Made by a program: the position numbers and the translations under genes | The notes under the pieces: generated by a model | The model's input: only the letters and a program-made list of their open reading frames with translations | What the model was told of the DNA's origin: nothing | Databases searched by the model: none | In this document: one piece after another, positions 15,565-55,543 of the stretch | Numbering within the stretch: the first letter of the stretch is position 1 | Layout: each line of letters begins with the position of its first letter | Source of the DNA: Zingiber officinale | Taxonomy: Eukaryota > Streptophyta > Magnoliopsida > Zingiberales > Zingiberaceae | DNA length: 64,000 nucleotides | Direction: 5' to 3' | NCBI RefSeq assembly: GCF_018446385.1 | Contig: NC_056003.1 | Span: 21,573,198-21,637,197 of the forward strand

Positions 15565-18098
15565 TATTGTCTAATCCAATTTTAGTTTGTAACGGATTTA
15601 TTAGTTTAATTAGGCAGGTGTGAGAAAGCATGCTAAAATAAAATTTGATAAAACACTACTAACAATGTCCTCCTCATAAAAAATATATAAAAAAAACCTT
15701 TTAAGATTAAAAAAAGAGGAATCTTATTTTAATTTTTACCACTAAATACTCTGTGTTAATGAACTAATTACATAAAGTTGTTGATTAAGTTGGTACGCAA
15801 GCATGCATTGGATTGCATGAAGGAGTTGCATTGGGTAGTACGTCGAGTATAAAACTTTCAAGTTATTATTTAATTAATAAGGTCCGTGATAGATAATTTA
15901 GTTAATAGTAGTATCTATTACTTATACTTGGAGTTCACCATCTTAATTATACTATTAGATGCCAACTCATAGTTTACTAGCGTAACACTACAACAATATA
16001 TATCAACAACATATTTAATTAGTTGTTGGGTGACGAAGCATCAACCCATGAAAATTGTTAACTTTTGGTATAGGTACCAAAATTTATTTTATTTTTTAGT
16101 TGGTATAATGTATCTAATTATTTGAATCGATTAATTTTGAATGTGATTGATTTGATCTTATGAAAATTTTTTACCAGCTACCATCCTGTGGAGGTCTATC
16201 CAAAAGAAAAAAAATTCTTACAATATGTGATAGTTAAGATTTAAATTTTAAATCCCTTAATAATTCATTAGAAGGTTAACCATTACAACATTACTCCGGG
16301 GACAAATGATACAAAATTTTAGATTTGGTAGATCATAGCAATGTGCCCATCAGACTCGATAATAAGGGATACATGCATGTGGTGTGTTTACATGTGCAGG
16401 GTTTAGCCCAACACCTTTATCACTGTTGAAATCAATAGGTAGAGAAAAGAAATAATATAAAACTTTTTGATAATCTTATTACTAAAGTCAATAGGTTTAT
16501 TTATACAAATTATCCAACACAATAATAGAAAGATTAAATAAGGTATACAATCATAATAATTATAAACATAGTAATATAATATACTTGGAAATATTATTTT
16601 TCCTATTTAATTCATGTCGATCTTGATTGTGTGCTAAATATAATAAATCTCAATTGATTGAAATTAATTAGAGATTATTTCCATTATTATCATTATCCCT
16701 CGACAAACTCAACGGGAGTGCCTGAACATTGAGTTTAAGTACTAACTTGGTGAAACGTTGTCTAGATAATGGCTTAGTAAATATATCAGCAATTTGATCT
16801 TCTTTAAAAATATAAGAAACCAAAAGTTGTTGAGTCGCCACATGCTCACAAACAAAATGAAAATCAAACTCTACATGCTTGGTACGAGCATGAAAACATG
16901 ATTTACCGCAAGATAAGTGTAGGACCGTTGGGCCGGCTAGAGGGGTTGGTAAATAACCTGTCAATTAAAAACAGACAACCCTTCCTCGAACGATTAAGCT
17001 AACACTTGTAAAATGAATTAAGCAGATAAATAAAAGCATAAAAGAAAAGACGAGGCACCAGATGTTTACTTGGTTACAACCGATGTGATTGTTAATCCAA
17101 GGAAGATTAAGCTCAAAAACTCCTTCAGGCGGAGAAGCCTCTTACAACGGTGAAAGCACAAAAACAGAAGCTAAACTAGAACAATGAGCGCACAAGTGTT
17201 TGGAATGCTAATTACTGAGTTGATTGACAGCTTCTGGACCAATGCTATATTTATAGCCTTGGTCGGGGCGCCTGGAAGGGTTCCGGGCGCCCTGGGGGGA
17301 TAAAACTTTATCCCCCAACGTCCAGAACGCGAAAGACGCGTTCTGGTCAAACTTCACGTTCCGGGTGCCCCGGACTGTTCCGGGCGCCCCGGGCGCCCTG
17401 GGCCCCCCGGACTGTTCCGTGCGCCCCGGGCTGCTCCGGGCGCCCCGGAGCAAAAAGTCAACTCTGGTTGACTTTTGCGTCCGGGACCTCTGCTCCGTTT
17501 TAGTCCCGCCTCGGTCCGGGTCTTCCGCTCCGGATCCGCTTGCTTGGGTGATCTCTGACATCCGGAATAGGGCTCACCCGAACCCATCTTCCGGTCTTCT
17601 CGAGCGTGCTTCCCTCCGGCTTCTCGTCCCTCGGAATTGCAGTGTGTCCCTTCTCGTCCACCAGCGTACTCATCCGCAGACTTCGTCCCTCGGTTGCACC
17701 CCGTGCCGACCTTCGCGCTAGCTGCGTCTATTGCTCCCCGATCAATCTCCCGCTCCGGCTTTCGTACCTCAGAACCACCGCGCGCACTTCCTTCTCGTCC
17801 GCCGGTGTACTCTTCCGCAGCACATCGTCCCTCGGACGCACCACGTGCCGTCCTTCTCGCTAGCTGCGTCTTCCGCTCGAGTACATGTGCTCCTAAGCTC
17901 CTGCACACTTAGACACAAGGTTAAAACAACGCAGGACCTAACTTGACTTGTTGATCACACCAAAACAACCTTGGGGTTCCAACAATAAGTTGCTCCAATA
18001 TTATCATACCATATTTTAGGTGTAGCAGTTCGGAAAAGGTGTAATTCTGAAAGAAGAGATTGTATCCAAATAATTTCTAACGTTGTGTTAGTGATAGC
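15565..18098. repeat. Tandem duplication unit A (second unit at 18977-20441)
   Basis: After removal of the solo LTR at 16918-17984, this unit is about 1.46 kb. It is nearly identical to 18977-20441, sharing TATTGTCTAATCC at the start and GTTAGTGATAGC at the end. It contains ordinary flanking DNA, a copy of the 3' LTR of the copia element (16424-16692), and part of the RNase H coding sequence (minus strand, 16668-16964; AREKH-type residues [17 protein letters not shown]). Unit B continues into the full copia element and is therefore the original locus; unit A is the extra copy. Confidence 0.9.
16918..17984 (-). mobile_element. Solo LTR with GGGCGCCC cluster
   Basis: The element runs from TGTAGGACCG to GGTTCCAACA on the plus strand. 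The 5-bp target duplication ATAAG lies at 16913-16917 and 17985-17989. The uninterrupted site (GATAAGTTGCTCC) is preserved in the duplicated copy at about 20327, confirming the insertion. Read on the minus strand it begins TGTTGGAACCCC and ends CGGTCCTACA. A cluster of CCGGGCGCCC/CCGGGGCGCC words (17265-17455) lies directly upstream, in minus orientation, of a TATA-like CTATAAATATAGC (17244-17256). The long ORFs in this GC-rich stretch are not genes. Confidence 0.92.
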
Positions 18099-18976
18099 TG
18101 TTGGTCCCCGTGGGTGTTTTGATGTGATTAACCAAGTTGGTTAGGTCCTGCTTTGTTTGATCCCTGTGTCTGAGTGTGTAGGAGCTTAGGAGCGCAGGAA
18201 GTCGAGCGGAAGACGCAGCTAGCGAGAAGGACGGCACGGGAAGGGAACCAACGGGCTCGGTGCATCCGAAGGACGAAAGAGCTGCGGAAGAGTACACGGG
18301 TGGTCGAGAATAACGTGCGCGATGTTCGAGGGACGTTAAGCCGGGGAGGAAGACTGCTCGAGGAGAAGGCCGAGAATTGAGTTCGGGTGAGCCCTATTCC
18401 GGTTGGCCGCAATCACCCAAAAGATCGGAGCGTCGGAAGTCAAAGCGAAGCAAAGAAGCAAGCTGGAATTCGAGCTGCCAGCTTGGAGGCGCCTCCAGCT
18501 TGAAGGGGCCTTCAGCCTTGTTGAAGGCGCCTTCAACAGGTCAAAACCGACCGTTTGCGCTGCGGATAAAGTTTTATCCGCTCACGCATTGGAGGCGCCT
18601 TGGACCTCAATTGGAGGCGCCTTGGACCCTCGAGATCAGATTTTCAAAGGATATTTAAAGGCCCCTGGAGCTAGGAATTCAATATAACTCAAGCAATCAA
18701 TTGTATAGTCTTTCCTAGCAATAGTTCTAAGCTTCAAAGTATAAAAGACTTCTCCGCCTTCAGCAAAAGGAGATCTTCTACTACGCTTTTGTCACTGCCC
18801 TGGATTAATAACCCTCTTGGTTGTAACTAGGTTAAATTCCTATCTTCTGCTTAATTTCTATTTCTTTATTTGTTATTATTTTTCTATTGCTTTTCTGAGT
18901 TGAAATCCGAGGAGGGTGTAGTTTATTTTTGATTTCAGAAATTCACCCCCCTCTTGTCGGCCTCCGCTGCACCTAG
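18099..18976 (+). mobile_element. LTR at the joint of the tandem duplication
   Basis: This starts TGTTGGTCCCCG and ends near CACCTAGTA. It is the same family as the solo LTR at 16918-17984 in the other orientation (shared GTTAGGTCCTGC, AGGAGCTTAGGAGC, GACGCAGCTAGCGAGAAGGA). It has a GGAGGCGCC cluster at 18485-18628 and a TATA-like ATATTTAAAGG near 18651. Its flanks (ATAGC left, TTGTC right) do not match, and each lies exactly at one end of the duplicated unit. Confidence 0.8.
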
Positions 18977-20171
18977 TATTGTCTAATCCCATTTTGGTTT
19001 GTAACGGATTTATTAGTTTAATTAGGCAGGTGTGAGAAAGCATGCTAAAAGAAAATTTGATAAAACACTACTAACAATGTCCTCCTCATAAAAAATATAT
19101 AAAAAAAAACCTTTTAAGATTAAAAAAAGAGGAATCTTATTTTAATTTTTACCACTAAATACTCTGTGTTAATGAACTAATTACATAAAGTTGTTGATTA
19201 AGTTGGTACGCAAGCATGCATTGGATTGCATGAAGGAGTTGCATTGGGTAGTACGTCGAGTATAAAACTTTCAAGTTATTATTTAATTAATAAGGTCCGT
19301 GATAGATAATTTAGTTAATAGTAGTATCTATTACTTATACTTGGAGTTCACCATCTTAATTATACTATTAGATGCCAACTCATAGTTTACTAGCGTAACA
19401 CTACAACAATATATATCAACAACATATTTAATTAGTTGTTGGGTGACGAAGCATCAACCCATGAAAATTGTTAAACTTTTGGTATAGGTACCAAAATTTA
19501 TTTTATTTTTTAGTTGGTATAATGTATCTAATTATTTGAATCGATTAATTTTGAATGTGATTGATTTGATCTTATGAAAAAATTTTATCAGCTACCATCC
19601 TGTGGAGGTCTATCCAAAAGAAAAAAAATTCTTACAATATGTGATAGTTAAGATTTAAATTTTAAATCCCTTAATAATTCATTAGAAGGTTAACCATTAC
19701 AACATTACTCCGGGGACAAATGATACAAAATTTTAGATTTGGTAGATCATAGCAATGTGCCCATCAGACTCGATAATAAGGGATACATGCATGTGGTGTG
19801 TTTACATGTGCAGGGTTTAGCCCAACACCTTTATCACTGTTGAAATCAATAGGTAGAGAAAAGAAATAATATAAAACTTTTTGATAATCTTATTACTAAA
19901 GTCAATAGGTTTATTTATACAAATTATCCAACACAATAATGGAAAGATTAAATAAGGTATACAATCATAATAATTATAAACATAGTAATATAATATACTT
20001 GGAAATATTATTTTTCCTATTTAATTCATGTCGATCTTGATTGTGTGCTAAATATAATAAATCTCAATTGATTGAAATCAATTAGAGATTATTTCCATTA
20101 TTATCATTACCCCTCGACAAACTCAACGGGAGTGCCTGAACATTGAGTTTAAGTACTAACTTGGTGAAACG

Positions 20172-22927
20172 TTATCTCGATAATGACTTAGTAAATATAT
20201 CAGCAATTTGATCTTCTTTAGAGATATAAGAAACTGAAAGTTGTTGAGTCGCCACATGCTCGCAAACAAAATGAAAATCAAACTCTACATGCTTGGTACG
20301 AGCATGAAAAACATGATTTATCGTAAGATAAGTTGCTCCAATATTATCACACCATATTTTAGGCGTAGCAGTTGGGAAAAGGTGTAATTCTGAAAGAAGA
20401 GATTGTATCCAAATAATTTCTAACGTTGCGTTAGTGATAGCTTTATATTCAGCTTCAGTACTCGAGCGAGAGATTATAGGTTGCTTCTTTGAAAGCCAAG
20501 AAAAAAGATTTCGCCCAAGAAATATAGCATATCCACTAGTAGAACGTTTATCTTCGAGAGATCCAGCCCAATCTGCATCACTGTAGACAATCAACTTTCG
20601 TGAAGACTAACGATATTGATACGACGCATGTTCGTGGGGTCGGTAAGATGATGTGGTGGTGAGTCAAGACCACAAGAGGGTCAGAAGTCAAGCTGACATA
20701 TAAGTCGAGACCACGGGAAGGTCAGAAGTCAAGCTTACGTGGAAGTCAGAAGTCAAGCTTACGTGGAGGTCAAAAGTCAAGCTTACATGGAGGTCAAAAG
20801 TCAAGCTTATAGGAAGCATCCGTCGAGGAATATCATCATCAGAGCTACTCAGAGATGAGTGGTCAGACGGATGAGAATCAAAACTAGAAAATGGATCACC
20901 ACTAGCCATCGAGTCTACAGGAACTTGTGGAGATGGAGCAGGACCCAAGATATCATCCCCCTTGTACTTTCAATATGTCTTGATGAATCAATATGTGGGG
21001 CTTCTAGTATATTTCTTGGTGATATTAGATAATTTCCTTGATTATCTGAAGGAGCTAGGATCTGAGGTAGCAACTACAAACGGAAATAGAGATTCATCAA
21101 AAGTAACATGTCGAGAAATATATATCCGAGTGGTTGAAATATGAAGGTAACAATATCCATGATGTAAATTACTATAACTAAGGAAAACACATTGTAAAGA
21201 GCGAGGATTTAACTTGTGCTTAAAGTAAGGTAGTAGCCAAGGATAACATGCGCAACCAAAGATACAAAATAAGGAGTAATCTAGAAGACAATTATAAAGT
21301 CTTTCCAATGGACACTTATTTTGAAGTAGTGGAGCAGGTAAATGATTGATAAGGTAGACTGCGGTTTGGACGGTATCATCCCAAAATTTAAGAGGAACCG
21401 AGGCATGATTAAGAAGAGCTAAGGCAGTTTCGACCACATGACGATGTTTTCTCTCGGCGGATCCATTTTGTTCAGGAGTGCGGGGACAAGAGACTCGATA
21501 GATGATGCCAGAGGAAGTAAGATGACAATAAAGCGCTTGATACTCTCCACCCTAATTAAAATAAAGGGTGAGGATTTTACGATCAAAATAGCGCTCAACC
21601 TGTTTTTAAAAGAGACAAAAATTACAAAGAGATCAGACTTTCTTTTTATAAGAAAAATCCAAGTAAACTTGCTGAAATTGTCAATAAAAATAACATAATA
21701 AAGAAAACCTTGATTAGATAGAATAGGAGCAGGACCCCACACATCAGAGTGAATAATTTCTAAAGGAAAACTCGAAGTGCGAGAAGAAGACACAAAAGGT
21801 AATTTATGATATTTTACTTTCATGCAAACTTCACATAAATGAGAAGAGGAGGCTAAAGAAATTGGTAAACCATACTGGTTAATGATATTCTGAACAACAC
21901 GTAGAGACGGATGACCAAGACGTGAGTGTCAAGAGAATTTATTAGTGCATTCTCCAACAAACACATTAGTATAGGTGGGCTGAAGATGATAAAGATCGTC
22001 TTTAATATTTTCTCGAAGTAGAATATTTTCTATTGTGGGATCCTTCACAAGACAATGATGAGGATGGCATTCAAAGAACACATTATTATCAAGAGCAAAT
22101 TGACGAATGGAAAGTAAATTTTTAGTAATAGAAGGAACATAAAGAGTGTTGCGCATGCGAAAAGTATGATCGCATGAGTGAAAATATGTGTTTCCAATAT
22201 GAGTAATTTGCAAACCTGAATCATTACCTATCTGTACCATGTCGGGTCCATCATAAGGCGAAACTTCTGTGATAATATTATATTCCGGTGTAACATGATG
22301 AGTTGCTCCATAATCCGGATGTCATCCTGGGTTCTCAAGAGTCGATGAAACTATAGTAGGAGAGATATAATGTGAGAATGCTCCAGAATGAGATGACTGG
22401 GTTGTAGAATGCTAAGAAGGTGGTGGTCGATTTGAAGATGCGTGCTCTCCTTGTGAAGTAGTTGGTTATCCCAATGCTACAGGACCACCAGCAAAATCTA
22501 AGTCAAATATTTTAGGACATTGAATACCAATATGTCCAATTCTGAGACAAATTTGACATCTTCTCTGACTATAAGACCAATCAAATCTTCTAGAGCAATG
22601 AATACCAGTATGACCAATGATGTGACAAATTTGACATCGATCTAAACTTTGCTTTTGGCCATCTTGATGTCGTTGAGTATCTGACATCGAAAATAAATAA
22701 CTCGTCCCTTAATAGTAATAGATTTTACTGGAAGAATTTTCGGCGGGGCTGGAAATAATACTTGGCACTGGAACCTTGCTGTCCAACGGAAGCGACAAAT
22801 TAGAAGCTTGGTGGATGGTGACGGCCACTTGTTGTGGGTGGCAGAGTAACTTTTTATCGACGACGATAAAAAAGCAGAGGGTTTTTCTACGTTGGCTTAG
22901 GCAGCTATTGGTGGTGAATAGAAGCAC
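20172..22927 (-). pseudogene. Copia polyprotein remnants (gag, protease, integrase, RNase H)
   Basis: On the minus strand: gag with two CCHC knuckles at 22466-22687 (CQICHIIGHTGIHC and CQICLRIGHIGIQC); pre-integrase region at 21929-22240 (NTLYVPSITKNLLSIRQ); integrase at 21042-21823 (IIHSDVWGPAP, FIDNFSKFTWIF, then FWDDTVQTAVYLINHLP); RNase H at 20172-20594 ([54 protein letters not shown]). The frame is broken in several places. Where the reverse transcriptase should be (about 20640-20830) there is instead a short tandem repeat of GGTCAGAAGTCAAGCTTACG-like units. It is non-functional. Confidence 0.9.
20640..20830. repeat. Short tandem repeat replacing the copia RT domain
   Basis: About five units of roughly 24-30 bp share AAGTCAAGCTTACGTGGAGG and lie between the integrase and RNase H remnants. 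They encode a repeated LTFDLHVS-like peptide on the minus strand, with no known domain. Confidence 0.75.
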
Positions 22928-24019: not shown

Positions 24020-27000
24020 TCATCCTGTGTACACCCTCAAGCGTGACGTTATAATCGTTCTGCATATCGGGCATCTGATCAAGCTCTCAGCGCAATCTCT
24101 GCAACACTGCAGCATCAATGGCGTTCGATCGATCAGATACGGGACTGTATATAGTAACACCAAAAAAACCTGCAGTACGGGACAGAGAGAGAGAGAGAGG
24201 GGCTCACTCACCATATGGCCACATCCAAAGGCCAAGTCTTTGGCATTGGTCAGGCAAACCGGGCAAGTCTGCAGCAGAAGAAAAAAAAATTCTTGAAATT
24301 TTCATCGAACGTATATATAATGCCTGCGAATCAGTCTGCATTACCTGGCTCTGGTCGTCATTGCTACTTTGCGCTGGGCTGCTGCTGCTTCTCTGCAACG
24401 TGCTGCTGCGTTCCGGCCGTCTGCTTTGCTGAGGCACGTACGACCTCTGTGTTTGTGCAGCCGGCAACGGAGGCGGCCTCGGCACGACTCTCTTGGCCTT
24501 CCCTGTCACTTGCCTTCGCCGGCCGGAGGAGGAACACGTATTTAGGATTATTATACAGCCCTAGGCTTCTTTATTTAAACAGAGTGCATGTTGTACCCGA
24601 GAATGCCGAGCTCCATGGTAGCTTTGTACTGGAGAGGGACCTCCATGAGAGCGGCGAGGGCGAAGGCTGCTTCCTTCTCCGCTGCGCTCGCGTTTCTCCC
24701 CATGATGGCGGTGAAGTTGACGAACTGCATCGCACGGCAGACAGTGAACGAACAGGGCGATCAATCGAGAAAGGATCAGGGGGATCCAGACTCGTTCAAT
24801 TTCCATGACCATACCTGAAAATTATCAAAATCGCGGGCGGGAAGCTTGTCGTCGAACTTCTTCATGTCGTCCCAAGGTCCGTCGCCGACGCCGACGAGCA
24901 CGATCGACAAGGGGTAGGCGCTGAAGCATTGAGAGAAGAGAACTCACGAGATTGAGCACCTCGACTCGACTACAGCTGAAAGTGACTGTGAAAACAGAGC
25001 ATACCTCGCCATCACAATCGAGTCGATAGTCTTCTTTTCTTGCGGACTGAGCTCGCCGTCGTCTGTGTCGACGCTGCGAGTGACCTTGAACGCAGACGCA
25101 GCGGTTCAAAGTTCAGAAAATATTGTGATCTGAAAAAACTAAGTGGAAATAAAGACGAACCTGGCCGTCTGCGATGATGAGCAAAACGTGGTATTGCCCA
25201 TGGTTTCTCTCGACAATGTCGACGGCTGCCTCCACGATCGGCGCGAAGGAAGTAGGCCCTTCGAGTAGTAATAGAGACTACAAATCATGCCTACTGATCG
25301 TGATCGATCATCATGGACAAAAGATGAATTGCAAACCTGCTAATCGTAGGTGAGGAACGATCTTCTTGTAGCAGGACAAAACTTCCTCAAATCCGTGGCA
25401 AGGCGAATTATCAGGATGAAAGCTGAACACATGTGTATCGTGAGTTGTCACTGCCATGATCAGAGAATAAGAAGAAGAAGAAGAAGGTGTATCATGGTGA
25501 TAGAACAGGAAAAACAAAACTTGCAGCAAAATCGAGAATAGAAATGAGAAGTATACTGTCGCCGAATCCGAAGCAAGGAATGAGGTTGTCGTCGTCGAAC
25601 GGAGCCAAAACCTTGCCAATTATAGTAATGGCTTGCTCGTAAGGGTTTGGCTGATCTCCGAGCTTGTGCAAGCTCTGACCTCTGAAAGAGTGCTTCCCTA
25701 CAAGAAAGGATGAATTTTCATCATAAAATTTGGAAATTTTAGCTGTGTAAATTCGATTGGATTCGACCAACCTGTCCATTCATTGCTTTTAGTGAAATCA
25801 ATCCCGACAATTAGATTTGATGACTCTAATCCAGCTTCTCTCAGGGCAGCTGTGACCTGCAGGGAAACACCTAGTGATTTTTAAGCTGTTGTTGGAAGTA
25901 TTGATATTAATCATCTAACTTAAGTTTTGATAAATAATAAATAAGTTAAATTAGATATTTTTTTTATGATCTAATATATTTATCGAGCGTGCAGGGATTA
26001 GCGGATCTAAAGAATCTGACACCAGGCTGAAATCCAACTAGGTCTGATGATATTGATATAGGTTGAGGGATAGAGAAGAAATTAGGGGGAGGAAGGAGGG
26101 CATTTCAGTCTTTTCGCAGGGTAGGACTTTAACGGTCTGTTTGGGAGGAGGTGAGGGAAGGGGAAGGAAGGGGAAATAAGGGGAAGGGAAACTTTGAACC
26201 TTGTTTGGGAAGGAGTGAGGAAAGGGAAGGAAAGGTAAGGAAGGGTAAGCTTTAACCTTCGTTACCCATGGAAAGAGAGATTTTCTTACACCCCGAATTG
26301 GGGTGTAAGGAAGGGGAAGGGAAAACCAAAAAAAATTTATTCCAATTTTATCCTTGTTCTTAATAGTTTAAGAAATACTCCAATTTCTAATCTTTCTATA
26401 TCGTCGGAGTCCAATTTCCTCGCCTTCTTCACAGCTCGCTTACTGCCAAAACATTAGAGGGGATCTGACACGTCTTCTAACTGAATTGAAAGGAGAAACT
26501 ATTTTTATCGTCAAAATTTAAGAGGATATCTACTATTTTTTAATTTTTTCATCAAAATTTAATAAGTTTTTAAATAATAAGAATTCTCGTTATCAACGTT
26601 ATCTTTCAAATTATTTTATTTAAGGTTTTTAAAATCATTATTTTCATTATTTCTCATTTAATTACTTGATTATCGATAATTCATTATTTTATTATGAATA
26701 ATATAAAAAGATTAATTTTTTATTAAAAATAACTAATTTAAATGATAATATAACAAATTAATTTTATTATTAAAAATATCTAATTTATATTTATAAAAAA
26801 ATATTAATATTATGAAAAATATCTAATTTAAAAAATGAGGATATTTTTATAACTTTATCTATTTAACCTTCATTCCCCTTCCTTTCCTCCCAAACAAAGT
26901 GACACATGTTACGTTAATGAACCTTCCCTTCCTCCCAAACAAGGAGAAGTTAAATACTTTACTTCCCCTCACTTCCCCTCCCTTCCCCTTCCGTTAATGA

Positions 27001-30000
27001 ACCTTCCCTCACTCCATCCAAACAGAGGGTAAAGGGGAAAAAGAGGCACTGTAGCAAAAGGAGGGTTCCGCCAGCTTCCACCACCAGGGGATCTCGTTCT
27101 TCCTCTCAAGCTCCTCGCCGCGCTGGCCGCCGGCCTCCACCTCTTCTCCTCTCCCTCTCCTCCTCCTCGCGTGTCGTCGTTACCGGACCGGCTACTGCCC
27201 CTCCCCTCTTCCTCACGCTCCGCTCTTCGCTGGCGCTCGCCACTGCTCCTTCTCCTTCTCCTCACGACGACCGCCTCTCCACTTCCTCCTTCTCTTCACA
27301 ACGTCGGCGTCGGACAAATTCGTCGCAACTCCCCTGAGCAGCCTTCTCCACGCCTCTACCATCGCGTCGTCTCCCTCGTCGCCTCCGGCCTAGCCGCAGC
27401 CACGCACGCTGTCGCCGAGCACCGCCTCCCACGGTCATCGCCGGGGCTCCTCTCTACACAGCGACCAGTGCAGTTCCTCCTCTCCGCATGCCTGACATCG
27501 GTGACAATGTCTACTGCCGAGCCACCATTGTATCCAGTAGCCCCGCTCCACTCCCTCTCCCTCCTTACCGGCGTCCGTCGCTCCGTCGACCAGGGCAGCG
27601 CAAAATCTGCTCTAAGCTGCAGCCGTCCCCCCCCCCACCGTCGCGCCTTCGATCCTCACGGTCATACATCGCCTACGCTGATTCGATATTCGATCCATGT
27701 TGACGTATGTTTTCAGCACTGATCAGACCCTCGGGCCATCGTTGTTCTGGCTCTGTGTCATGGTTGTGTTTCAGCCCTCGAGCCGTGGCTATGTTTCAGT
27801 CTTTGCCTCGTCCTCCATATGTGTTAAATCCTGGGTTGTGTGCAATATCTTGGCATGCATGCCGATATCATGTTTCGGCTTTCGTGTCATCAGTGGATCT
27901 CGGTCTGCGTGTCGATGTCTTATCCAGACCTGCGTGCCAATGTCTTATCCCGGCCTGCGTGCCGAGGTCGCATCCAGTTTCGCGCCACCGCGTTTGGCTC
28001 CGCGTCGTCAGATTCAGCTCCTCGTCCGGCGCATTCGTCTAAGCTTCCAGGTCACAACAACTCGAGCAGCGTCCCATCCGAGGACGCCCCCCTGGGGCAG
28101 GGTGCGTTTTCCGTACTCGCCCCTCATTTATTTCACTATTATATTATTAGTCTGTTACTTATATATTCGTCGGATCTGCCTCGAGCTTCGGGGTACCAGG
28201 GACCGGGAGGACCCGGTCGCTGGCTGCAAGTAGCGTGTTGACCAGAGGACTTCTGAAGACTTGGTCAACATAGAAGTCATCTCATCATACCCCCCCCTCC
28301 GAGACATCACTATTCGGTCAACATTCCATCCACCTCACCCCGCGGTCCATCTGACACAGATCCCAGATAGGATCATCTGAGGATCCGATAGTTGGTGCAA
28401 AATCTAGATAGGTTAAAGGACCGACTTGATATCTAGCTGGAAGTCGGGTTGAGTTCGCGAGGTCTAACAGTTGGCCGAAGTCCAGTTGGGTCTGCGGACC
28501 TGAGAACTGGTGAGAAAATCTGATGGGTCGAGAGCTAGTCAATAAACTATAAGTTGGTCAGTGAAAGTAAGTCACTGGAGGAGAGAGTTCCGGTGAGGAC
28601 AAGTTCAAGTTTGAACTTTAGGTGCTGGTCAAGTTTAGGTCAATTTGGAATACCTAATTTGAGATCATAACTAGTTTCTAGTCTTGAAGAGATAGAAACT
28701 CATTAATACTCTTATTTTATATTTGTGTTAATCTCATATTACAGGGTATACTTTGTTTCTAGACTAATACATTTTGTAGGAGTAAAAAAGTATTAAAATC
28801 CTCGAATGAACAGTGCTCGAGATGCCTCTTAGTGATTGGAGGCGTCCTAGAGCAAAAGGCGTTGAGGCACCTCTTGGTAGTTAGAGGCACCCTGGATTGA
28901 GGGTTGGAGGCACTTCAGAGGTGTTGGAGGTGCCCTTGCGCTGGATAAAAGCATCGCAGAGAGCGAGATAAGCTTGGCGCTTGGAGGCACCTTCCAAGGA
29001 TAAAATTCGCAAAAAGCAGATTTTATCGATTCCGAAGATAAGGGAATGAGGCTTGATATTGGAGGCACCCTGGAGGATATTGGAGGCGCCCTCAACAGTT
29101 AATAAAAGAAGGCTTGGAGTAGCACTTCAAACATTATAATATTCAAGTGTTCTACAACTCCTCCACTGCTTCAAAGAAGTCTTTCCACCGTCGAACTATT
29201 TTTCAAGTCATCCGACCATCTCCGTTAAACTGATTGCAACACACGAGCGAGCACGACCATAAAGTTGGTAAAATTTAATTAAGGGTTGCTTTTAAAAGGG
29301 AAGTATAGGTTGTTACACTGTCCCTATCTTTGTATTTGATTACCTCTTTCGACGGTTCCAGAAGAGACGTTTAGTGGATTATTCGTCAATAGATCCGCAG
29401 GACCTGGGTCTTAGAGTAGGAGTTGTCGAAGGCTCCGAATCAAGTAAAACTGATCGAGTTTTTCCTTGTGTTCTTTTCAGTTTAAACTTTCCGTAGTGAT
29501 TTTATTTTAACTTTTTAAAATAACTCTGTTTTCAAAAACACGTGATTCACCTCCCCTCACATGCTCACAATCCAACAGGGTATCAGAGGCAAGTTAGCTC
29601 TGAATTGATGCAACCACCGATCGAGTAGGGGGTTCATCGATTTTCCAGTTTCTCTCATTTAATTATAATTGTAACTTTTTCCCACACTACTTACCCTAAG
29701 ACCAAGTCTTGGTATTACTAGCAGCCCGGTGCACGAAGCTCCCACCATGCGGGATACCGGGAAAGGATCCATTGTACGCAACCTTACCCTGCTTTTTGCA
29801 AGAGGCTGTTTCTAGGATTCGAACTCGTGACCTTTTGGTCACATGGAAACAACTTTACCGTTGCGCCAAGGCTCCCCTTCACCAAGTCTTGGTATCTATT
29901 TTAAATTTTATTTTTCAGTAAACCAATGAACCAAACTGAGGGATCCAACATCGTTCATCCCCTGCTATTCAATTGAGACGACTTCTCCTACTAGAAGAAA

Positions 30001-39000: not shown

Positions 39001-42000
39001 TCGACGAATGTGTCATTCTCCTCACTCAACGGGTATTCGGGAGTCGAGGAACTGAGTTAGATCCTCTGTTGGACGGTAGGTTAGTTTGTGCGTTATCTTT
39101 TCCCTTTCAGTTATATGATCTGCCCTAGTTCCTCGATCGAGGACCCCCGTGCCGATCAGCTGGGCGTATATTATCCGAGTCACGGGCTCGATGTCGAAGA
39201 CCACGTGCCGATCGGCCGTGCCGATCAGCCGGGTGTATATTTATCCGAGCCGCGGGCTCGATGTCGAAGACCCTGTGCCGATCCTCCGTGCGTATATTTA
39301 TCCGAGCCACGGCTCGATGTCGAAGACCCCGTGCCGATCGACCAGGCGTATATTATCTGAGCCACGAGCTTGATGTCGAAGACCCCATGCCGATCAACCG
39401 GACGTATATTATCCGAGCCACGGGCTCGATGTCGAAGACCCCGTGCCGATCGACCGGGCGTATATTTATCCGAGCCACGGGCTCGATATCGAAGACCCCG
39501 TGCCGATCGACCGGGCGTATATTTATCCGAGCCACGGCCGGCTCGATGTCGAAGACCCCGTGTCGATCGACCGGGCATATATTTATCCGAGCCACGGGTT
39601 CGATGTCGAATACCCCGTGCCGATGTGCCAGGTGTATATTTATCCGAGTCACGGGCTCGATGTCGAAGACCCCGTGCCGATGTGCCAGGTGTATATTTAT
39701 CCGAGCCACGGGTTCGATGTCGAAGACCCCGTGCCGATGTGCCAGGTGTATATTTATCCGAGTCACGGGCTCGATGACGAAGACCCCGTGCCGATCGGCC
39801 GGGCGTATATTTATCCGAGCCACGGGCTCGATGTCGAAGACTCCGTGCCGATCGGCCGAACGTATATTTATCCGAGCGACGGGCTCGATGTTGAAGACCC
39901 CATGTCGATCGGGCGGGCGTATATTTATCTGAGCCACGGGCTCGATGCCGAAGACCCCGTGCCGATTGGCCGAGCGTATATTTATCCAAGCCACGGGCTC
40001 GATGTTGAAGATCCCGTGCCGATCGGTCGGGCGTATATTATCCGAGCCACGGGCTCGATGACGAAGACCCCGTGCCGATCGGCCGGACGTATATTTATCC
40101 GAGCCACGGGTTCGATGTCGAAGACCCCGTGCCGATCGACCGGGCGTATATTTATTTGAGCCACGGGCTCGATGTCGAAGACCCTGTGCCGATCGGCCGG
40201 GTTTGAGTTATGCTTGAAGACCGTCGCGAGGCGACGTTAAATCCTAGAGCCGAACCGGCGGCTATCAATACCCGGCTTGAAGATCGTCGAGCGGCTACGT
40301 TAAACCCTAGAGCCGAACCGGCGACTATAAATACCCGGCTTGAAGACCGTCGAGCGGTAATGTTAAACCCTAGAGTCAAACCGGCGGCTACAAATACCCG
40401 GCTTGAAGACCGTCGAGTGGCGACGTTAAACCCTAGAGCCGAACCAGCGACTATAAATACCCGGCTTGAAGACCGTCGAGTGGCAACGTTAAACCCTAGA
40501 GTCGAAGCGGCGACTATAAAAACCCCGCCTTGAAGACCGTCGAGTAGCGACATTAAACCCTAGAGTCGAAGCGGCGACTATAAAAATCCCGCCTTGAAGA
40601 CCGTCGAGCGGCGACGTTAAACCCAGGTCTCCACCGGTGGTCGAGCGGCGACCTTAAACCCGTGTCTCCACCGTCCAGCTTATCAGAGCATTTATCTCCC
40701 CTGTTCGGGGTCAAGCGGTTTTCATTGGTCACGAACCAGTCTTATCGGATCTCCTATCTCCCCCGTTCGGGGTCGAGTGATTTTCACTGGTTTCGGACCA
40801 GCTTATCAGATCTCATATCTCCCCCATTCAGGGTCGAGAGGTCTTTATTGGTCGCGGAGTATATATCTCCCCCGTTCGGGGTCAAGCAGTTTTCACGATC
40901 TTCTACATCCCCCGTTCAGGGTCGAGCAGCTTTCACCAGTCGCGGATCAGTATATCATATCTTTTATCTCCCCCGTTCGGGGTCGAGCAGTCGCCATGAG
41001 CGCCTATCTCCCCTGTTCGGAGTCGAGCAGTCTTCACGAGCAGCTATCTCCCCCGTTCAGGGTCGAGCAGCCTTCACTAGTCGCGGCCCAGCATATCATA
41101 TCTTCCACCTCCCCTGTTCGGGTTCAAGTAGTCTCCACCAGCATCTATCTCCCCTGTTCGGGGTCGAGTAGTCTTCACGATCTTCTACCTCCCTCGTTCG
41201 AGGTCGAGCAGCCTTCACCGGGTCGCGGATCAGTATATCATATCTTTTATCTCCCCCGTTCGGGGTCGAGCAGTTGTCACGAGTGTCTATCTCCCCTGTT
41301 CGGGGTCGAGCAGTCTCCACAAGCATCTATCTCCCCCGTTCGGGGTTGAGAGACCTTCATTGGTCTCGGACCAGCATATCGGATCTCACATCTCCCCTGT
41401 TCGGGGTCGAGCACGTCTCACTGGTCACAGACCAGCTTATAAGAGCGTCTTATCTCCCCCGTTCGGGGTCGAGCTATCTCCGATGGTCGCAGACAAGAGT
41501 ATCTCCACTGGTTTCGGACCAGAATATCTCATAGGCTATGCGCACGTTCGGTTCACGACTTTCGTTTCCGTGCGCCTTCGACTCACGGGCTACACTCCAG
41601 TTCAATTCACGTGCGATGCGCTCGTTCGGCTCACGACTTTCGTCTCTGTGGGCATTCAATTTCACGGACTAGGCTCTCACTCAGTTTTCGGGCTCCACTC
41701 CGGCCCAGCGCTGCTTCGCCTTTCGCTCGGTATTTGTCCAGGTGCTCACTTGTTGTTCGCCCGATAGCTTACTTGGCAGTCGCTCGGCCCTATTTTTCAT
41801 CGCTCGGCCGACATTTTGGTAGCCACCTGATCCTCCACTTAGCCACGCGCTTGTGTTTCTTGGTAGTCGTCAGGTTGGCATTTTATGGTCACCTGGTTGA
41901 CATTTTCAGGCCGTCCGGCCGCAGTTTACGGCAATCCGATTGGTATTTTACGATCACCCTGTCGGTATTCTCCGAGCCGCTCGTTTAGTATTCTCATGAT

Positions 42001-45000
42001 CGTCCGACCGGTACTGCTCAGCTGCCCGTTCGGCTATACACTTAAACAACTCGATCGAACGCTCAGCATTCTCTCGATGGTCTAGTCATCATCTTATGGT
42101 CGACTGGCCGACATTTTCTCGGTCACGCGCTCGGCATCGTCCGTCCGACGTCTATCCACCAGATCGACATCCTTCCGATCGCTCGGTCGGCGTCTTCGCA
42201 GTCGCGCGCTCGGCATCGCTCGTCCGCTCGGTCTACTCGTTATCCCGCGTATCGCTCAGTCTATTATCATTTTACTCGTCGTTCGCTTTACGTTCTGCCG
42301 CTCACTCAGCATCTGTCTGGTTGCCGACTCGGTACTATTTTTCGTAGTTTGCTTATCACCGCTACTATCTCTCGTGCGACACCATTGCTATAGTGATCGT
42401 TGACGTGGCATTATACAAGGGGTTCAGCGATTCGACTCTATTATCAAGAGTGATTCAACTTTGGAAATAGATTGTCTAGTCAGTCGAACTCGTGCCTCCT
42501 TCGACTAGACTTGAAGGGGATGCTTGTGTTATGGATATTGTTGGGGGCATAGGAGGGAGTTAAAGAGAAATAGGGGGGCGGGGGGTATTTTCACCCTTTT
42601 GCTGTGAGGGCATTAAGAAGGGAGGAGGGGTTCGTGTTCGAAGGAGGAGCTTCTCCGCCACCATCCTCGCGCAAGAGCCAACACCACCTCCTCTCCTTCA
42701 CACTGCCGCTGACGCCTCCTTCTCCTTCCTCACCGGCAAGCCACCACTCCCTCTATCTCTCTCTCGCTCACTCCATACTCTGCTCCGAGGGGGGATGACC
42801 GCCAACAGGAAGAAAGGGAGCAAGCTTGGGGGTTCTGCCGCCGCCACCAGGGATCGAAGCAGAGGCTTCTGCTCTCGTCGCCGCCTCCGGAGAGATCTGC
42901 CGACAACACCCGTCTTTGGGCCATTTCCTCTGCTTTCCCTCTCCGCCGCTTCCTTTCTTCTCCGACCCCGGTGCCTCCCGCTGCCGCTGCCGGCGCCTCA
43001 CGACGCCACCGTTGCTGCCAGCGGCTGTGGACGCCGTCGCTGACACCTCTCACACCCGCAACAAGCCACTGTCGCCGCTCCTCTCCCTTTTCTTGTATGC
43101 GCGTTGGCGCCTTAAGTACAGGGACGCACGGTACGCCGCTGCCTCCAGCGGTCTTCACCTCTCGCGAGCGTCACCGACCCCTCCAGCGGGGGCTGTCGCA
43201 GCCTTCAACGGCCACTGCCACAGCCTCCAACGGCCGCTGCTGCAGCTTCCATGTCGACGTATGATTTCGGCGCTGATTTGGTGCTCGAGTCACCGCTGAT
43301 CCGGCCTTTCAGCCGCTGCTATCGCATTCTGCCCCATGATCTATGTTATGCTTTGTGTGTTATGTTCCGGCCATCGAGCCGTTTTGTTTTGCTATTTGCA
43401 CTGTTATTATGCTTGCTGCACCGAGTTCCATGTCGTCGCCCCCAGATCCGGCTCCTCAGCTGACTCACACTCGTCTGCTCGGCACGGTCTCGATGACTCG
43501 ATCAGCACCGCGACCAGCTCATCGACCCATCTGAGGGCGCCCCCCGGGGCCAAGGTACGTCATCGTACTTGTCCTACCTTTACTTCATTGTTCTGCTATT
43601 ATTTGATTGCTTATACATTTGTGGGACCCGTCTCGAGCATCGGGGTACCAGAGACCGGGGCGACCCGATCGCTAGCTGCAGGTAGCGTTGACCGGAGGTC
43701 TTCCGATGACTTGGTCAACACAGGAGACAGACCACCATCCAGGTCATGGAGATGCGGTCAATATTCTAGACACGTCATTCCAGCAAGTTCGTCTTCTCAG
43801 ATTCTCGACAAGATCAGACAGTAATACACAAGCGCATATGACTATAAAATTGGTAAAATTTAATTAAGTATTGCTTTCTTTATTACTGCTTTTAAAATGA
43901 AAGTGTAAGTTGTTACACTGTCCCTGTCTTTGTATTTGATTTCGTCTTCCAACAGCTCCGGAAGATGCTTTTAGTGAATTACTCGTCGATAGGTCTACGG
44001 GATCTGAGTCTTGGAGTAGGAGCCGTTGAAGGCTCCAAACCAAGTAAAATCGATCGAGTTTTTTCTTATATTCTTTTCAGTTTAAACTTTTTGCTGCAAT
44101 TTTATTTTAAAATAATTCTGTCTTTAAAAATACATGATTCACCCTCTCTCACGTGCTGATGATTCAACAAGAAGTAGGGTGGTAAAGTCCAATCAAATTT
44201 ATTATGTTCAAACTTATTGAGTCAAAATAAATTAAGCGGTTGAAATATTTATTCAAATTTAGTTTGATATTTTTTTACAAGAACTCGATTTAAGTTTGAT
44301 TTGTTTACATAGTATCAAACTCCCAATTCAAATTGTTTAAATTTTTTTATAATTTTAAATTTATTTGATTAGCTATTAAACTAATAATACAAGTTTGCTT
44401 ATTCATTTTGTTATTTTTTATTTATTTACAATGAAAATTTTATATATGAATTTAGTTAATAAATTTTGTTCCTCAATATTCATAAATATTATTCACAAAT
44501 AATTCCCTCATGACAAACATGGTGAATTATTAGTTTGATGTTAATCATCTTTGGACAATTAACACTAAAGTTTTACATTGGCAATAAATAGCTAATTTCT
44601 GAACGGTCTTAATTGAAGAATTTAATTTATAAAAAACTACAAATTAAGTATAAATTATCATTAGTTTGTAAGATTTCAGAACCTGGTCGACCGTGGTGTA
44701 GTTGTCAGGGATGAACGCGTATTTCTTCATAACTTCACTCTTTTTGCGATTTATTCTCCTTCCCATGGAAGACTGAGAGCTGCTCGAACTCCACCCCTCT
44801 ATTTCCCGAACCGCCGGGCGAAAACTCCACGCCTCTATTTCCCGAACCGCCGGGCGAGTCCTCCACCCCTCTATTCCCCGGGCCGCTGGCCGGTGAGCTC
44901 GCCGCCGACCGAAAAGCAGGGCCACCACATTCCCCATCCACCAACCATATACTAATCCGATCGAAAGAAGGCAAAACGACGGCTGAAGTAGTATCGATTT

Positions 45001-47606: not shown

Positions 47607-47625
47607 AGGGTATTCGTTTGGTTTA

Positions 47626-49148: not shown

Positions 49149-49162
49149 CTCTATATAAATAG
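49149..49162 (+). promoter_or_regulatory. Putative TATA box of the polyphenol oxidase gene
   Basis: CTCTATATAAATAG lies about 110 bp upstream of the start codon, a normal distance for a plant gene with a leader of 80 bp or so. Confidence 0.65.
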
Positions 49163-49270
49163 CCTATAATGATCTCACCTCGTCCTGCAAAATCTTATAC
49201 ATATTTACTTATATTTGTGTATGTGATTATTGATTAAGATATCAAATAATCTGGTGCAGTTAATATTGCT

Positions 49271-51114
49271 ATGAATACAATGGCTAGCTTTGTTGTTCCA
49301 TGCAATATTCCTCATACGACCATCAATAACAACTCCTTTGCATGCGCCTTCCCCGCCAAAAGCCCTTCTTTCATAATTAGGCAACGTCGATGTTCCAAGA
49401 TCGCATGCAAATCTAGCGATGATGTGCATGAGCCCACGCTCGACCGTCGCGACGTCCTCCTCGGTCTCTGCGGCGCCGCCGCCGCCGTCGGCGGACTTGG
49501 GGTCGGTAGCAAACCGGCCTTCGGCAGCCCGATCACGGGGCCGGATCTCTCCAAGTGCGGGCCTGCCGACTTGCCCAACGGCGTCCCTGTCGTCAACTGC
49601 TGCCCTCCATACTCCAGCACCATAAGGGACTTCAAGCTCCCGCCGCAGTCGTCGCCCCTCCGCGTCCGCCCCGCCGCCCACCTGGTCGACGCCAACTACC
49701 TGGCCAAGTACACCAAGGCCGTCGAGCTCATGAGGGCGCTGCCGGCCGACGACCCGCGCAACTTCACGCAGCAGGCGAACATCCACTGCGCGTACTGCGA
49801 CGGCGCCTACGAGCAGATCGGCTTCCCCGACCTGGAGATCCAAGTCCATAACTCGTGGCTCTTCTTGCCGTGGCACCGCTTCTACCTCTACTTCCACGAG
49901 AGGATCCTTGGTATGCTCCTATATATTTATTCGATGATTAATCTTCTCGATTAAGTCTCATAGATTTCATACTGTTTTCGATTCGATTCGCAGGGAAACT
50001 CATCGGCGACGAGACCTTCGCGCTTCCCTTCTGGAACTGGGACGCGCCAGGTGGCATCCAGATGCCCTCCATCTACACTAAAAAGTCTTCCTCGCTCTAC
50101 GACAAGTTACGGGACGCCAGGCACCAGCCGCCAGCCCTCGTCGACCTCGACTTCAACGGGGTCGACCCTGGCTTGCCCTACCCGCAGCAAGTCGACCACA
50201 ACCTCAAGATCATGTACCGCCAGGTGGTCTCCGGAGGAAAGACGCCGTTGCTGTTCATGGGCTCGCCGTACCGCGCAGGCGACGAGCCCAACCCTGGATC
50301 CGGCTCACTGGAGAACATCCCGCACGGTCCGGTGCACATTTGGACCGGCGACTCGACGCAGCCGAACGGGGAGGACATGGGCAATTTCTACTCGGCGGCG
50401 CGGGACCCCATCTTCTTCGCGCACCACGGCAACGTCGACCGCGTGTGGTATCTATGGAAGAAGCTCGGCGGCCGGCACCGCGACTTCGACGACAAGGACT
50501 GGCTCAACGCCAGCTTCCTCTTCTACGACGAGAACGCGGACCTGGTCCGCGTCACGGTGAAGGACTGCCTGGAGACGGAGCGGCTGCGGTACACGTACCA
50601 GGACGTGGAGATCCCGTGGCTGAAGTCGCGGCCGACGCCGGCGAAGAGAGCTGCCGCAGGGACTCAGAGGCTGGGGAGACCGAGCGCTTCTACCGCAGAG
50701 GCGGCGAGGTTCCCGGTGGTGCTTAATTCGCCGGTGAGCTTCACGGTGAAGCGGCCGAAATTATCTAGGAGCGGCGCGGAGAAGGAGGCGGAGGAGGAGG
50801 TGCTGGTGGTGGAGGGCATCGAGTACGACCGCGACTTCTTCATCAAGTTCGACGTGTTCGTGAACGCCCTCGAAGGGACGGAAGGGCTGACTCCCGGCGA
50901 GAGTGAGTTCGCCGGAAGCTTCGTGAACGTGCCTCACAAACACAAGCACCGGAAGAACGAGAAGAAGCTGAAGACGGGGCTTCGCCTCGGGATCACGGAC
51001 CTGCTGGAAGACATCGGAGCTGAGGACGACGAGAGCGTACTGGTGACGATCGTACCGAGGGCCGGGAAGGGGAAGGCGTCGGTGGCCGGCATCAAAATTG
51101 ACTTCTCAAAGTGA
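49271..51114 (+). CDS. PPO: Polyphenol oxidase (catechol oxidase), plastid, 2 exons
   Basis: Type-3 copper enzyme oxidising o-diphenols to quinones in the thylakoid lumen; causes tissue browning. Exons 49271-49910 and 49994-51114 with an 83-bp GT-AG intron; 586 aa. The N-terminus is a chloroplast transit peptide, then a twin-arginine lumen signal ([17 protein letters not shown], from R59). CuA ligands are H172, H193, H202, with C176 placed for the thioether bond to H193. CuB ligands are H324, H328, H358. E320 and F345 fall at the positions of the family's water-keeper glutamate and gatekeeper phenylalanine. The DWL domain follows ([13 protein letters not shown]), then the C-terminal KFDV domain ([11 protein letters not shown]), which covers the active site until cleaved. 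An in-frame ATG lies three codons downstream of the first. GC-rich throughout; no disabling change seen. Confidence 0.97.
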
Positions 51115-51204
51115 AAAACCATCCACCACAAGACGCAATCAATTAGTCAATCATCCATGTGGGTGTATATATATAAAAGATCATATAATCGCCGATAATA
51201 TTAT

Positions 51205-51213
51205 CAATAAAAA
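51205..51213 (+). terminator. Putative polyadenylation signal of PPO
   Basis: CAATAAAAA about 90 bp after the stop codon contains the canonical AATAAA hexamer. Confidence 0.6.
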
Positions 51214-51298
51214 TTGTTGCATCATTTTCCTTAATATATTATAATCAGCCTTCTATTCTACAACTAAACGATGATTTGTCTGAAATATGATATATAAT

Positions 51299-52054: not shown

Positions 52055-52063
52055 ATATATAAT

Positions 52064-53802
52064 CGTTCTTTTTTGGGGTCTCACAAAATTTTCCAATCAA
52101 ATCTGAATACGAAATAAGAAGAGCTAGCAGATAAAGTCAAAAAGCCATTTGCTAAAGTTTTGATTTCTCAGCATCATAACTTAGCTTTCATTGTACACGA
52201 AAGTTGAGGTTTCATAGTGTGAAATTCACTGCATTCCGTATCGTAAGCAGTAAGAAACACCCTCACCTACAGATAGAGCCAAGACAAAAAAGAAATAAAT
52301 TTATAGCGTTTAATTACTTTTCCTGTTATGAATTAACAATTACGATTTAGAAAGCAGAGAAACTTGACTATTGTACGAGCCGCATGCGTTGCCATTGGCT
52401 CAGTGAGCCAAAGTCGCGCCTCGTAGTAGAATTAACAAGCGATTGAAAGTTCACCGGAAAAGGCTGACACGACTACTCCCTCGACTAGCCAACTTGCATT
52501 CATTATGTCGGTTGTCCAGATTTTTTTTTTTTTGGTTTTTAAAATGCAACTAGCTACATGTCAACGTCTGACTTAATCATCGCTGTCGCATTCGAAGGTG
52601 ACTTATGTGCTCATCAACTACGAATCGCACTTGAAATGTCCAAGTCGCTAGACAGGTTGGCATTGGTAATTGCCGGGACTAATTAAGAGATGGCTCGAGT
52701 CGGATCCAAAGGGGACAGGCGGATAGGCGACACCTCATAAAATTTAAAAAATTCACAAATATTAAACAAATTAAGTGAACGTTAGTGTGTATTCGTCCAT
52801 GCCAAATGTTTCGGTATATATAGATTTAGAGACTTTGATCTCCCTAAACTTAAGAAATCCATTAAAACTCTAAATAATATTGAGAAATGAGAAGATTATC
52901 AAGAGGTTGAGCTGAAGCCTTCCACCTGAAAATCCTTGAGCATTATTAGCATTAAATTTCTCTTTCAGATACTTGCGCAAGCTTTGACTAAAGCCACATC
53001 TATTGTTGCTGAGATAGAAATATTAGGTAACTAACTTCAATTGGTGGTCCCAATGACAAAAATTTAATATCATAAACCTACCTTATCTACTCAATCTAAC
53101 TCGCTTACCCCTAGACTAAAATGTACATACGATAAGCATATAAATTGTAAAATAAATTTTTTAATTATGGTCAATCTATATATCAAACTTTCTAATTAGG
53201 ATGAATGTTAATTCTATAGAGGACCACTTTGTAACTACAAATCTATGAATAAAATTACTATTGCATTCATAAAAGGAAGAAGGATAGATCTACATTATTT
53301 AGGACAAGAATGCCGACGTTGGAACACTAGCTATGCTACCTATACTTACCATTCATCAGTTCACAAATGTGGTGTGCATACAAAAAATTCAATTAATAAG
53401 AGAGATAACGAGACATTATTTATTGCAATTTTAAAATAGACTGTAGGTAGGCATGTGCTTCACTAAAAGTATTGATCAACTTTGCTTGCATCTATTATTC
53501 TTGTGCACATGTTAATGCCTTCTAATTTTAAAATTGCAAGAAATGTCTTGCTATCTATCACTCTTATTTATGATATTTTTTTTTTCATAAGGTCTATAAT
53601 TAATATAATTAATGCCCTAAGGTGCTATTTGAGATACAAGTGCCTTCAAGAGGTTGAAAATACTATTAAAATTTTACTTTACACATATATGAAAAACATC
53701 ATAAATTTATAAGATAGAATATATTATATTGGTATGAGATTTTTAGATAGAATCTAAAAATAAATCTATAAAAATTTAAGTCCAAAGTGGATAGTATTAT
53801 AT
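52064..53802. other. AT-rich intergenic region
   Basis: Both strands show only short ORFs without recognisable domains. No repeat ends could be defined. Confidence 0.4.
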
Positions 53803-55543
53803 TGTTGGGAGATTCTTGGTACAATGATCCTCAGGTCAAGGTTGACTAAGATCGAGTGAGTCCGAACTTGAGTTTTGATATTTGGACAATATGTAGGACG
53901 ATATGTGAGATGAGAGTCAAGTAGGTTATAGAGGGCTGAACTTAACTGCAAAGTCCTAACTAGATGTTAAGCAAGGTAAAGTCCTAACTTAACTCGATGG
54001 TTAGGCAAAGAGAAGTCCTAACTACGGGTAGGAAAAGGAAATTCCAAGTGCGTCTAGGAGGAACGAACGTTGGCAAAGAAAAGTCTAAGTAGGTTGAGGA
54101 GGATCGTATGTTGACAAAGAGTTAGTCCTAACTATAGTTAGGCAAAGGAAAGTTGAAGTGGGTCTGGGAGGACCGTACATGGTAAAGAGGAAAGTACAAA
54201 CTGCGATTAGGCAAGAGGAAAATCCAAGTATATCTAAATGTGGAACCGCCACATCAGCGGCCCCCCTAAAGCCGGTCCCACGGATATGGAGGGAGGTAAA
54301 TGCAGGTACATAATTGAAAGCGCATGACAGAGACGTTAACCCTAGGTCATGACACCCCGAGGATCGAACCCTGGACCTCTCGGCCACAAGACCATGCACC
54401 CCCAACTGTGCTATGCCCTGGGGACAAATCCAAGTAGATCTAAGATGACACTACTCGGTGATCGAAAGTCCAACGGGAAGTTGAAAAAATCCAAGTGAAT
54501 TAAAGGTTGACCGAACACTTAGTGGGAAGTCCCAACAGATCACAATTGATCGGATGTTAGACAACGGAACTCTAGATTTGGATTAAGCAAGTTAGGGTTG
54601 ACCAATCGATTGAGGTAATCGATTGACCCTAAGTTAATCAATTAGGTAATCGATTAGGAGGTTCTTGCGAGAACACAAAAAGAACCTAAATCGATTGGTC
54701 AATCGATTGGACTAATTGATTAGGGCCGCTCCAATTGATTAGAATGAGTTCCTAATTGATTGAGAACTTTGTGAAGAGAAATCATGAAAATAATGACTGA
54801 ATCGATTGACCCAATCGATTCAGCCACTGCTAATCTATTGGGTCAATTGATTAAATAGTGTTTTATCATGAGAAAGAAGAATCGATTGAGGTAATCGATT
54901 AAGAAGTCTAATCGATTGGGCTAATCAATTAAGGCCTTTTCATGAATGAATAAAGAGTTTCAGAATCGATTAGATAATTGATTAAGGCTCTCTGAATCAA
55001 TTGAGATGACTCGTCAATCGATTAGAGTTTCAAAAAAGGAACCATTCTGTAGGTTGAACGAGCAAATCCTACATGGAAATTGATTAGGAGTGATCCTAAT
55101 CTATTGGAAAGCGTCAAAGAACCCTAGAAAAGGATCTTTGTGGATTTTTTCGGAGCTATCCCTCTCGCACACTCTCCGCCAGTTCTTGAGCCCTTGGAAG
55201 ACAAGTGTTACTGTACTTTTCAACGATCAAGAGGCATCTACAAGCTACAAGATATCAAACAAGGTGTTTATTGTATTGTGTATTTATTTTCTTGGTATAT
55301 TTTCTTGTTGTGAGCTTGTACGAGATTTCTCTACCTCCAGATTATTTTCAAGAAGGATTATTTTTTATAGTGAAGTGTGTGCACTATATGGATTCTTAGA
55401 TTAGTCACCTCAAGAAGGTAGATACCAAGTAAAATCCAAGTGTTAACATTGGTGAGTATTCACTTCAAGATATCCACCGCATATCATCATCGACGAAGCG
55501 ATCGAATCTATTCACCCCCTCTAGCTCCCAAAGTATCATAATA
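53803..55543 (+). mobile_element. 5' LTR of a decayed copia element
   Basis: Starts TGTTGGGAGATTC and ends about 55543, with TGGTATCAAAGC (tRNA-Met primer site) at 55546. It has the same layout as the solo LTR at 31004-32849: CCTAAC/GTTAGG hairpin words, an AATCGATTGG cluster (54600-55030), then the TTCACCCCCTC tail. A SINE is inserted at 54238-54425. No 3' LTR is found in the window. Confidence 0.83.
54238..54425 (-). mobile_element. tRNA-derived SINE (second family), intact copy
   Basis: The minus strand begins with an A-box-like GGGCATAGCACAGTTGG and has the B-box GGTTCGATCC. The body matches the copy at 36998-37183. Flanks AAATCCAAGTATATCTAA (54220-54237) and AAATCCAAGTAGATCTAA (54426-54443) are an 18-bp target duplication with one mismatch. 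Confidence 0.9.

Follow-up and report, generated by a model that had tools for sequence, protein, structure and literature searches.

What are the dense clusters of short palindromic words that stand in the long terminal repeats (LTRs) of a 64-kb stretch of the ginger genome (Zingiber officinale, contig NC_056003.1, positions 21,573,198 to 21,637,197, referred to here as the window), and what might they do? The original prediction described a common plan, in which each LTR family carries in its U3 region an array of its own self-complementary word, in most copies upstream of a TATA-like box. Such arrays are present, their words are palindromic and specific to the family, seven of nine LTRs have the array ahead of a TATA-like box, and among the LTRs there are shared ends, poly-C runs near the ends and an excess of words decayed at CpG. 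This layout is already published for Sireviruses (2010), and the window provides new examples of it with some new words. We consider it probable that the LTRs belong to plant Copia elements of the Sirevirus type or to close kin, and that the clusters are the published arrays of a repeated palindromic motif (RM).

The statistics are based on nine LTR copies, all within the one 64-kb window, with limits set from target-site duplications (TSDs) and sequence matches. Direct location of the words confirmed both the words that had been predicted and their places. For each LTR, the count of its core word was compared with the average over 500 dinucleotide-shuffled versions of its own sequence. Summed over the nine LTRs there are 49 exact core words, compared with 1.8 expected. 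The observed count was reached by none of the 500 shuffles in A1, A2, B2, B3, C2, D1 and D2, so enrichment over shuffled controls holds in seven of the nine LTRs but not, for the exact word, in B1 and C1. A scan that presupposes no word gives a similar picture (635 sliding windows of 600 bp, AT-only words excluded, 20 shuffled copies as control). At least three copies of one palindromic 8-mer were found in 48 of the 635 sliding windows, against 0.0 per shuffled copy, and at least four copies of a 6-mer palindrome in 63, against 1.6 in shuffles. The 8-mer windows form eight clusters, and six of these lie in LTRs A1, A2, B3, B2, D1 and D2. Palindrome clusters are not confined to LTR U3s: the other two belong to a hAT-like element and to a tandem repeat of 57 bp (CCGATCGG, CGATCG; 39.2-40.2 kb).

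The family A LTRs contain the word GGTCGACC. LTR A1 (157-4534, plus strand), recognised from its TSD AATAT, word positions and shuffle counts, has this word at 668, 818, 839, 905, 3961 and 4040 (six exact core words versus 0.05 expected) and TATAAA at 4130. It is one LTR with a palindrome array, as predicted, and reads as a solo LTR split by a hAT-like transposon. The GGTTAACC cluster at 3637-3814 and the copy of GGTCGACC at 1082 lie in this transposon and are no part of the LTR. LTR A2 (10265-11545, plus strand, TSD AAACT) reads as a solo LTR, with GGTCGACC at 10803, 10866 and 10939 (three versus 0.02), one-mismatch copies up to 11066 and TATAAA at 11100. It also carries an array, but its true start according to the TSD is 10265 rather than 10271. 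The family D LTRs are built on ATCGAT. LTR D1 (31004-32849, plus strand, TSD GAAGG) reads as a solo LTR and has 14 copies from 32046 to 32301, mostly paired 12 bp apart (14 versus 0.25). D2 (53803-55543, plus strand) is a 5' LTR whose 3' end was placed from sequence only; the junction after it looks like a primer-binding site. D2 has 12 copies from 54605 to 55022 (12 versus 0.63) and ten CpG-decayed copies. The spacing of successive words is conserved, 12, 19, 12, 41 and 12 in D1 and 13, 19, 12, 41 and 12 in D2.

The remaining LTRs have GGCGCC words. B1 (4536-5635, plus strand) is an LTR remnant with one exact GGCGCC at 4974, a count reached by 17 of 500 shuffles, and TTTAAAAG at 5152; the cluster predicted for 4540-5635 is therefore not one of exact words, but it is enriched as three CpG-decayed copies, compared with 0.18 expected. 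LTR B3 (16918-17984, TSD ATAAG) reads as a solo LTR and has GGCGCC at 17267, 17286, 17383, 17392 and 17439, four of them as GGGCGCCC (five versus 0.42), with TATAAA at 17255-17250 on the minus strand. The array does precede a TATA-like box, but the orientation of this LTR is now the minus strand. LTR B2 (18099-18971, plus strand) has GGCGCC at 18488, 18526, 18594 and 18616, all as AGGCGCCT (four versus 0.25), and TATTTAA at 18652. A second palindrome, GGATAAAGTTTTATCC, stands among the array words at 18564-18579 in B2 and 17298-17313 in B3, the flanking pairs being changed on both sides.

C1 and C2 are the LTR pair of one element, element C (25890-44169), each with an insert, and LTR D1 sits within the same element. 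The main part of the 5' LTR C1 (28376-29577, plus strand) has one exact GGCGCC (29085), reached by 36 of 500 shuffles, five CpG-decayed copies versus 0.33 expected, and AATAAAAG at 29101. The 3' LTR C2, delimited by sequence matches (5' part 36420-37634, remainder 43823-44169 past the insert, plus strand), has GGCGCC at 37218, 37326 and 37383 (three versus 0.11), five CpG-decayed copies and AATAAAAG at 37499. A GGCGCC cluster had been proposed for both LTRs; it holds for C2, while C1 keeps one exact word among mainly decayed copies. TSDs were searched over a grid of trial end positions; the matches for B1 and D2 lacked LTR-like ends, and none was found in this grid for B2 or element C. In the TATA, shuffle-count, LTR-comparison and symmetry analyses the C1 sequence started at 28067 and includes about 309 bp of nested insert, and the B2 and C2 sequences started one base early.

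When CpG-decayed and one-mismatch copies are counted in defining the array end, the TATA-like box follows it by 61 bp in A1, 33 in A2, 8 in B1, 30 in B2, 11 in B3, and 10 in both C1 and C2. Seven of the nine LTRs thus have the array where it was predicted, before a TATA-like box, but the gap of 8-61 bp is shorter than the 100-200 bp proposed. The box after the array is TATAAA in A1, A2 and B3 and TATTTAA in B2. The boxes of B1, C1 and C2 are weak, being only TTTAAAAG or AATAAAAG, patterns picked with the LTRs in view. Several LTRs have extra TATA-like matches elsewhere, one of them within the A1 array, and C2 has nine in total. None of the TATA-like patterns used matches in D1 or D2. By pattern, six of nine LTRs (A1, A2, B2, C1, D1 and D2) have a poly-C run at a distance of 16-22 bp from their end; by eye, B3 has a four-C run near its end, and the pattern found none near the ends of B1 and C2.

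The words are also found in decayed form. One-mismatch copies of the kind produced by CpG deamination number 30 in the nine LTRs, compared with 5.1 expected in 500 shuffles, and other one-base variants number 39, compared with 30.6. The decayed copies are distributed as ten in D2, five each in C1 and C2, three each in B1 and D1, and two each in A1 and B3. The ratio of observed to expected CpG within the exact-word span is 0.75-1.51 in the seven LTRs with at least three exact words. Because CpG-decayed words are in excess, the sequences suggest that the arrays were methylated in the past, a suggestion that carries no statement on present methylation.

The families are related to one another to different degrees. 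B1 aligns with C1 at 63% over 1178 columns and also matches C2. B2 and B3 are 75% identical over 273 columns, with two further stretches, and keep the GGCGCC core while the neighbouring bases have changed. D1 and D2 are 67% identical over 380 columns, with further stretches, and A1 and A2 match in pieces. Between families, the ends of the A LTRs match those of C and B1, but the arrays do not match. At the 5' end A1 and C2 are 68% identical over 109 columns, with words CGGTCGACCG (A) versus GGAGGCGCC (C), and at the 3' end A1 and C1 are 62% identical over 199 columns. The proposal that LTR text is shared between families while the word differs is therefore right for the A and C ends, but sharing is partial, and matches between A and D are limited to stretches of 40-95 columns.

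Sireviruses offer the closest parallel; among the literature matches listed, no title was closer than PMC2829016 (Bousios et al. 2010), and in the part of PMC3414828 that was available the single use of 'palindromic' refers to strand direction. According to PMC2829016, the Sirevirus RM is missing from classic Copia elements and forms an LTR cluster upstream of a conserved TATA box. The word differs by element, and Table 3 gives 13 words, including CGGTCGACCG for Vitis and ACAATCGATTGT for Tnd-1; two elements lack the TATA box, and Tnd-1 is among them. A poly-C integrase signal is found near the LTR end at a mean distance of 21 bp. The LTRs of the window are similar in having one palindrome multiplied per element, upstream of a TATA box, with poly-C near the end. 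CGGTCGACCG is exactly the A word, ACAATCGATTGT is close to the D word, and D1 and D2 resemble Tnd-1 in lacking a TATA-like match. Where an LTR has at least three exact words (seven LTRs), their span falls between 0.36 and 0.70 of its length, rather than in the upper half as for the Sirevirus RM (PMC2829016). The maize Sireviruses Ji, Opie and Giepum likewise have a palindrome-rich, variable regulatory part of the LTR, and PMC5311732 and PMC10760457, citing Bousios et al. 2016, describe a small-RNA excess or hotspots over such palindromes, shown by small-RNA mapping. The 5' junction could be compared in D2 and element C, the remaining LTRs being solo or cut, and the polypurine tract in element C alone. 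The best fit to the published 16-mer in the window is the D2 junction, TAAATGGTATCAAAGC, with 13 of 16 positions in agreement. ORF (open reading frame) pieces 3' of it look gag-like by eye, without a gag match in Pfam, which covered 19 of the 174 ORFs of at least 75 amino acids.

Several observations weigh against the identification with Sirevirus arrays. The published 5' LTR junction is CA/ATTGG/TATCAGAGC (PMC2829016), and that of element C agrees with this 16-mer at 11 of 16 positions, with a different spacer. The published terminal polypurine tract is AGGGGGAG with AT/TG, in several copies (PMC2829016); that of element C, ATGAGGAA, has AT/TG but agrees at five of eight positions, and the interior of the element has only one exact AGGGGGAG, at 33497. 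RM-bearing Sireviruses all have at least eight copies, with a CGG-CCG core except in Tnd-1, while A1, A2, B2, B3 and C2 have three to six exact copies and B1 and C1 one each, and the GGCGCC words lie outside the 13 of Table 3 and lack the CGG-CCG core (PMC2829016). Nine short patterns found no reverse transcriptase motif in the window. With regard to decay, A2 and B2 have no CpG-decayed copies, and non-CpG variants likewise exceed shuffles (three versus 0.23 in A2, seven versus 2.39 in C2). Outside the core word, permutation gives no significant symmetry in A (p 0.69) or in B/C (p 0.26). In D, 33 of 52 positions in the outer flanks of 13 dyads are complementary, against 26.9 by permutation, a weak effect (p 0.025, or 0.039 after duplicate removal). 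We rejected such symmetry as proof of selection, since it is unsupported in A and B/C and weak in D. Sirevirus membership is therefore likely from the LTR features and not proven: in element C the polypurine tract does not fit and the 5' junction agrees poorly, the published copy number and core are not those of most arrays here, and the search for reverse transcriptase motifs gave none.

What might the arrays do? The palindrome copies, centred on CpG and placed in U3 up to a point just ahead of the core promoter, would form the enhancer of the element, to which a dyad-reading host factor, probably a dimer, may bind. Host methylation and small RNAs could also be directed at the same CpG-rich, hairpin-prone repeats, and conflict between the two roles may drive turnover of the word. 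We infer from their sequence that the arrays could act both as sites for dimeric regulators and as silencing targets. The reading as swappable dimeric sites, which the original prediction put forward, is among those offered by Bousios et al. 2010, who did not find a common binding factor and called for promoter tests (PMC2829016).

The arrays could instead have arisen by neutral, minisatellite-like expansion, in which a chance palindrome in a fast-evolving LTR is multiplied locally without any binding function. Tandem repeats do overlap some of the arrays (in D1 a unit of 30 bp at 32123-32212, in B3 units of 37 and 19 bp at 17358-17449), palindromes cluster likewise in the hAT-like element and the 57-bp tandem repeat, and in A and B/C the flank symmetry beyond the core lacks significance. 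We nevertheless regard this as unlikely, as the D2 array has no tandem repeat among the 150 of 164 tandem-repeat rows listed, seven of nine LTRs repeat the placement ahead of a TATA-like box, the word spacing is kept between D1 and D2, and the same words occur in published elements of distant plants (PMC2829016). Action at the RNA level appears less likely still. Strings of U3 hairpins at the 3' end of the genomic RNA would then have a part in packaging, dimerisation, termination or translation, in place of a role in DNA binding. It would fit that the D words, 12-13 bp apart, pair into inverted repeats of greater length (13 dyads) and that GGATAAAGTTTTATCC is kept in B2 and B3 while its flanks have switched from GC/GC to GG/CC. 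Five of the nine arrays were folded, and all were more stable than their shuffles (z -5.3 to -10.1, no shuffle equally stable). These z-scores are not independent, because repeated palindromes fold well by construction, and predicted folding was rejected as independent evidence. In addition, the flanks in A and B/C show no significant complementarity, and the position of the arrays goes with that of the promoter.

A number of other features are present in the window. The hAT-like transposon nested in A1 (about 1014-3950, minus strand) is foreign to the LTR and has a BED zinc-finger ORF (2861-3568, minus strand; Pfam zf-BED, E 3.1e-05). By eye, its flanks CTGGGATT/CTGGGATC form an 8-bp duplication with one mismatch and its ends are TAGACCTGACC/TAGACCCGACC. 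hAT DNA transposons have subterminal repeats, in which a short motif is repeated near the element ends. The nested element is similar in having a short motif repeated close to its ends. Unlike the LTR arrays, subterminal repeats are a feature of a DNA transposon, and the GGTTAACC cluster here is a 34-bp tandem repeat. Further 6-mer clusters outside LTR U3s are CCTAGG at 1-900, AAGCTT at 20301-21300 and GTCGAC at 49601-50700, the last in and around a polyphenol oxidase gene. This gene region (49250-51114) consists of two ORFs (49250-49951 and 49942-51111), and the best solved-structure match of the second is a chloroplastic polyphenol oxidase.

The insert in C2 (37635-43822) has ends of about 1.3 kb that are 90% identical (37635-38909 and 42526-43816), with 57-, 63- and 141-bp tandem arrays between them, and related ends occur at 28067-28279. 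A short repeat common to C2 (36987-37196) and D2 (54225-54420), 67% identical over 259 columns and missing in C1 and B1 where these were aligned, is probably a small nested transposon. Two copies of a segment of about 1.47 kb are found (15565-18099 and 18977-20442, 98.4% over 1357 bp), B3 is inserted in the first copy, and B2 lies exactly between the copies without a TSD; the pair looks like a duplication with B2 at the junction. Minus-strand ORFs at 58034-59673 and 21045-21551 match SH3_retrovirus, Pol_BBD and zinc knuckle in Pfam and are pieces of other retroelements, one of them in the region following D2.

Compared with the published Sirevirus arrays, the window adds GGCGCC-type words, several families side by side, the decay signal and the conserved spacing of D. 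It is possible, although we hold the idea only tentatively and think it doubtful, that related LTR lineages swap the whole U3 array while keeping the LTR ends, through decay of methylated CpG and a switch of host regulator; instances would be CGGTCGACCG (A) versus GGAGGCGCC (C), and AGGCGCCT versus GGGCGCCC in B2 and B3. If this were true, retrotransposons would provide, within one genome, a natural series of re-specified enhancers. The decay of CpG to TpG or CpA inside the words is a simple measure pointing to past methylation of the arrays, and it could help to test whether they are enhancers that double as silencing targets.

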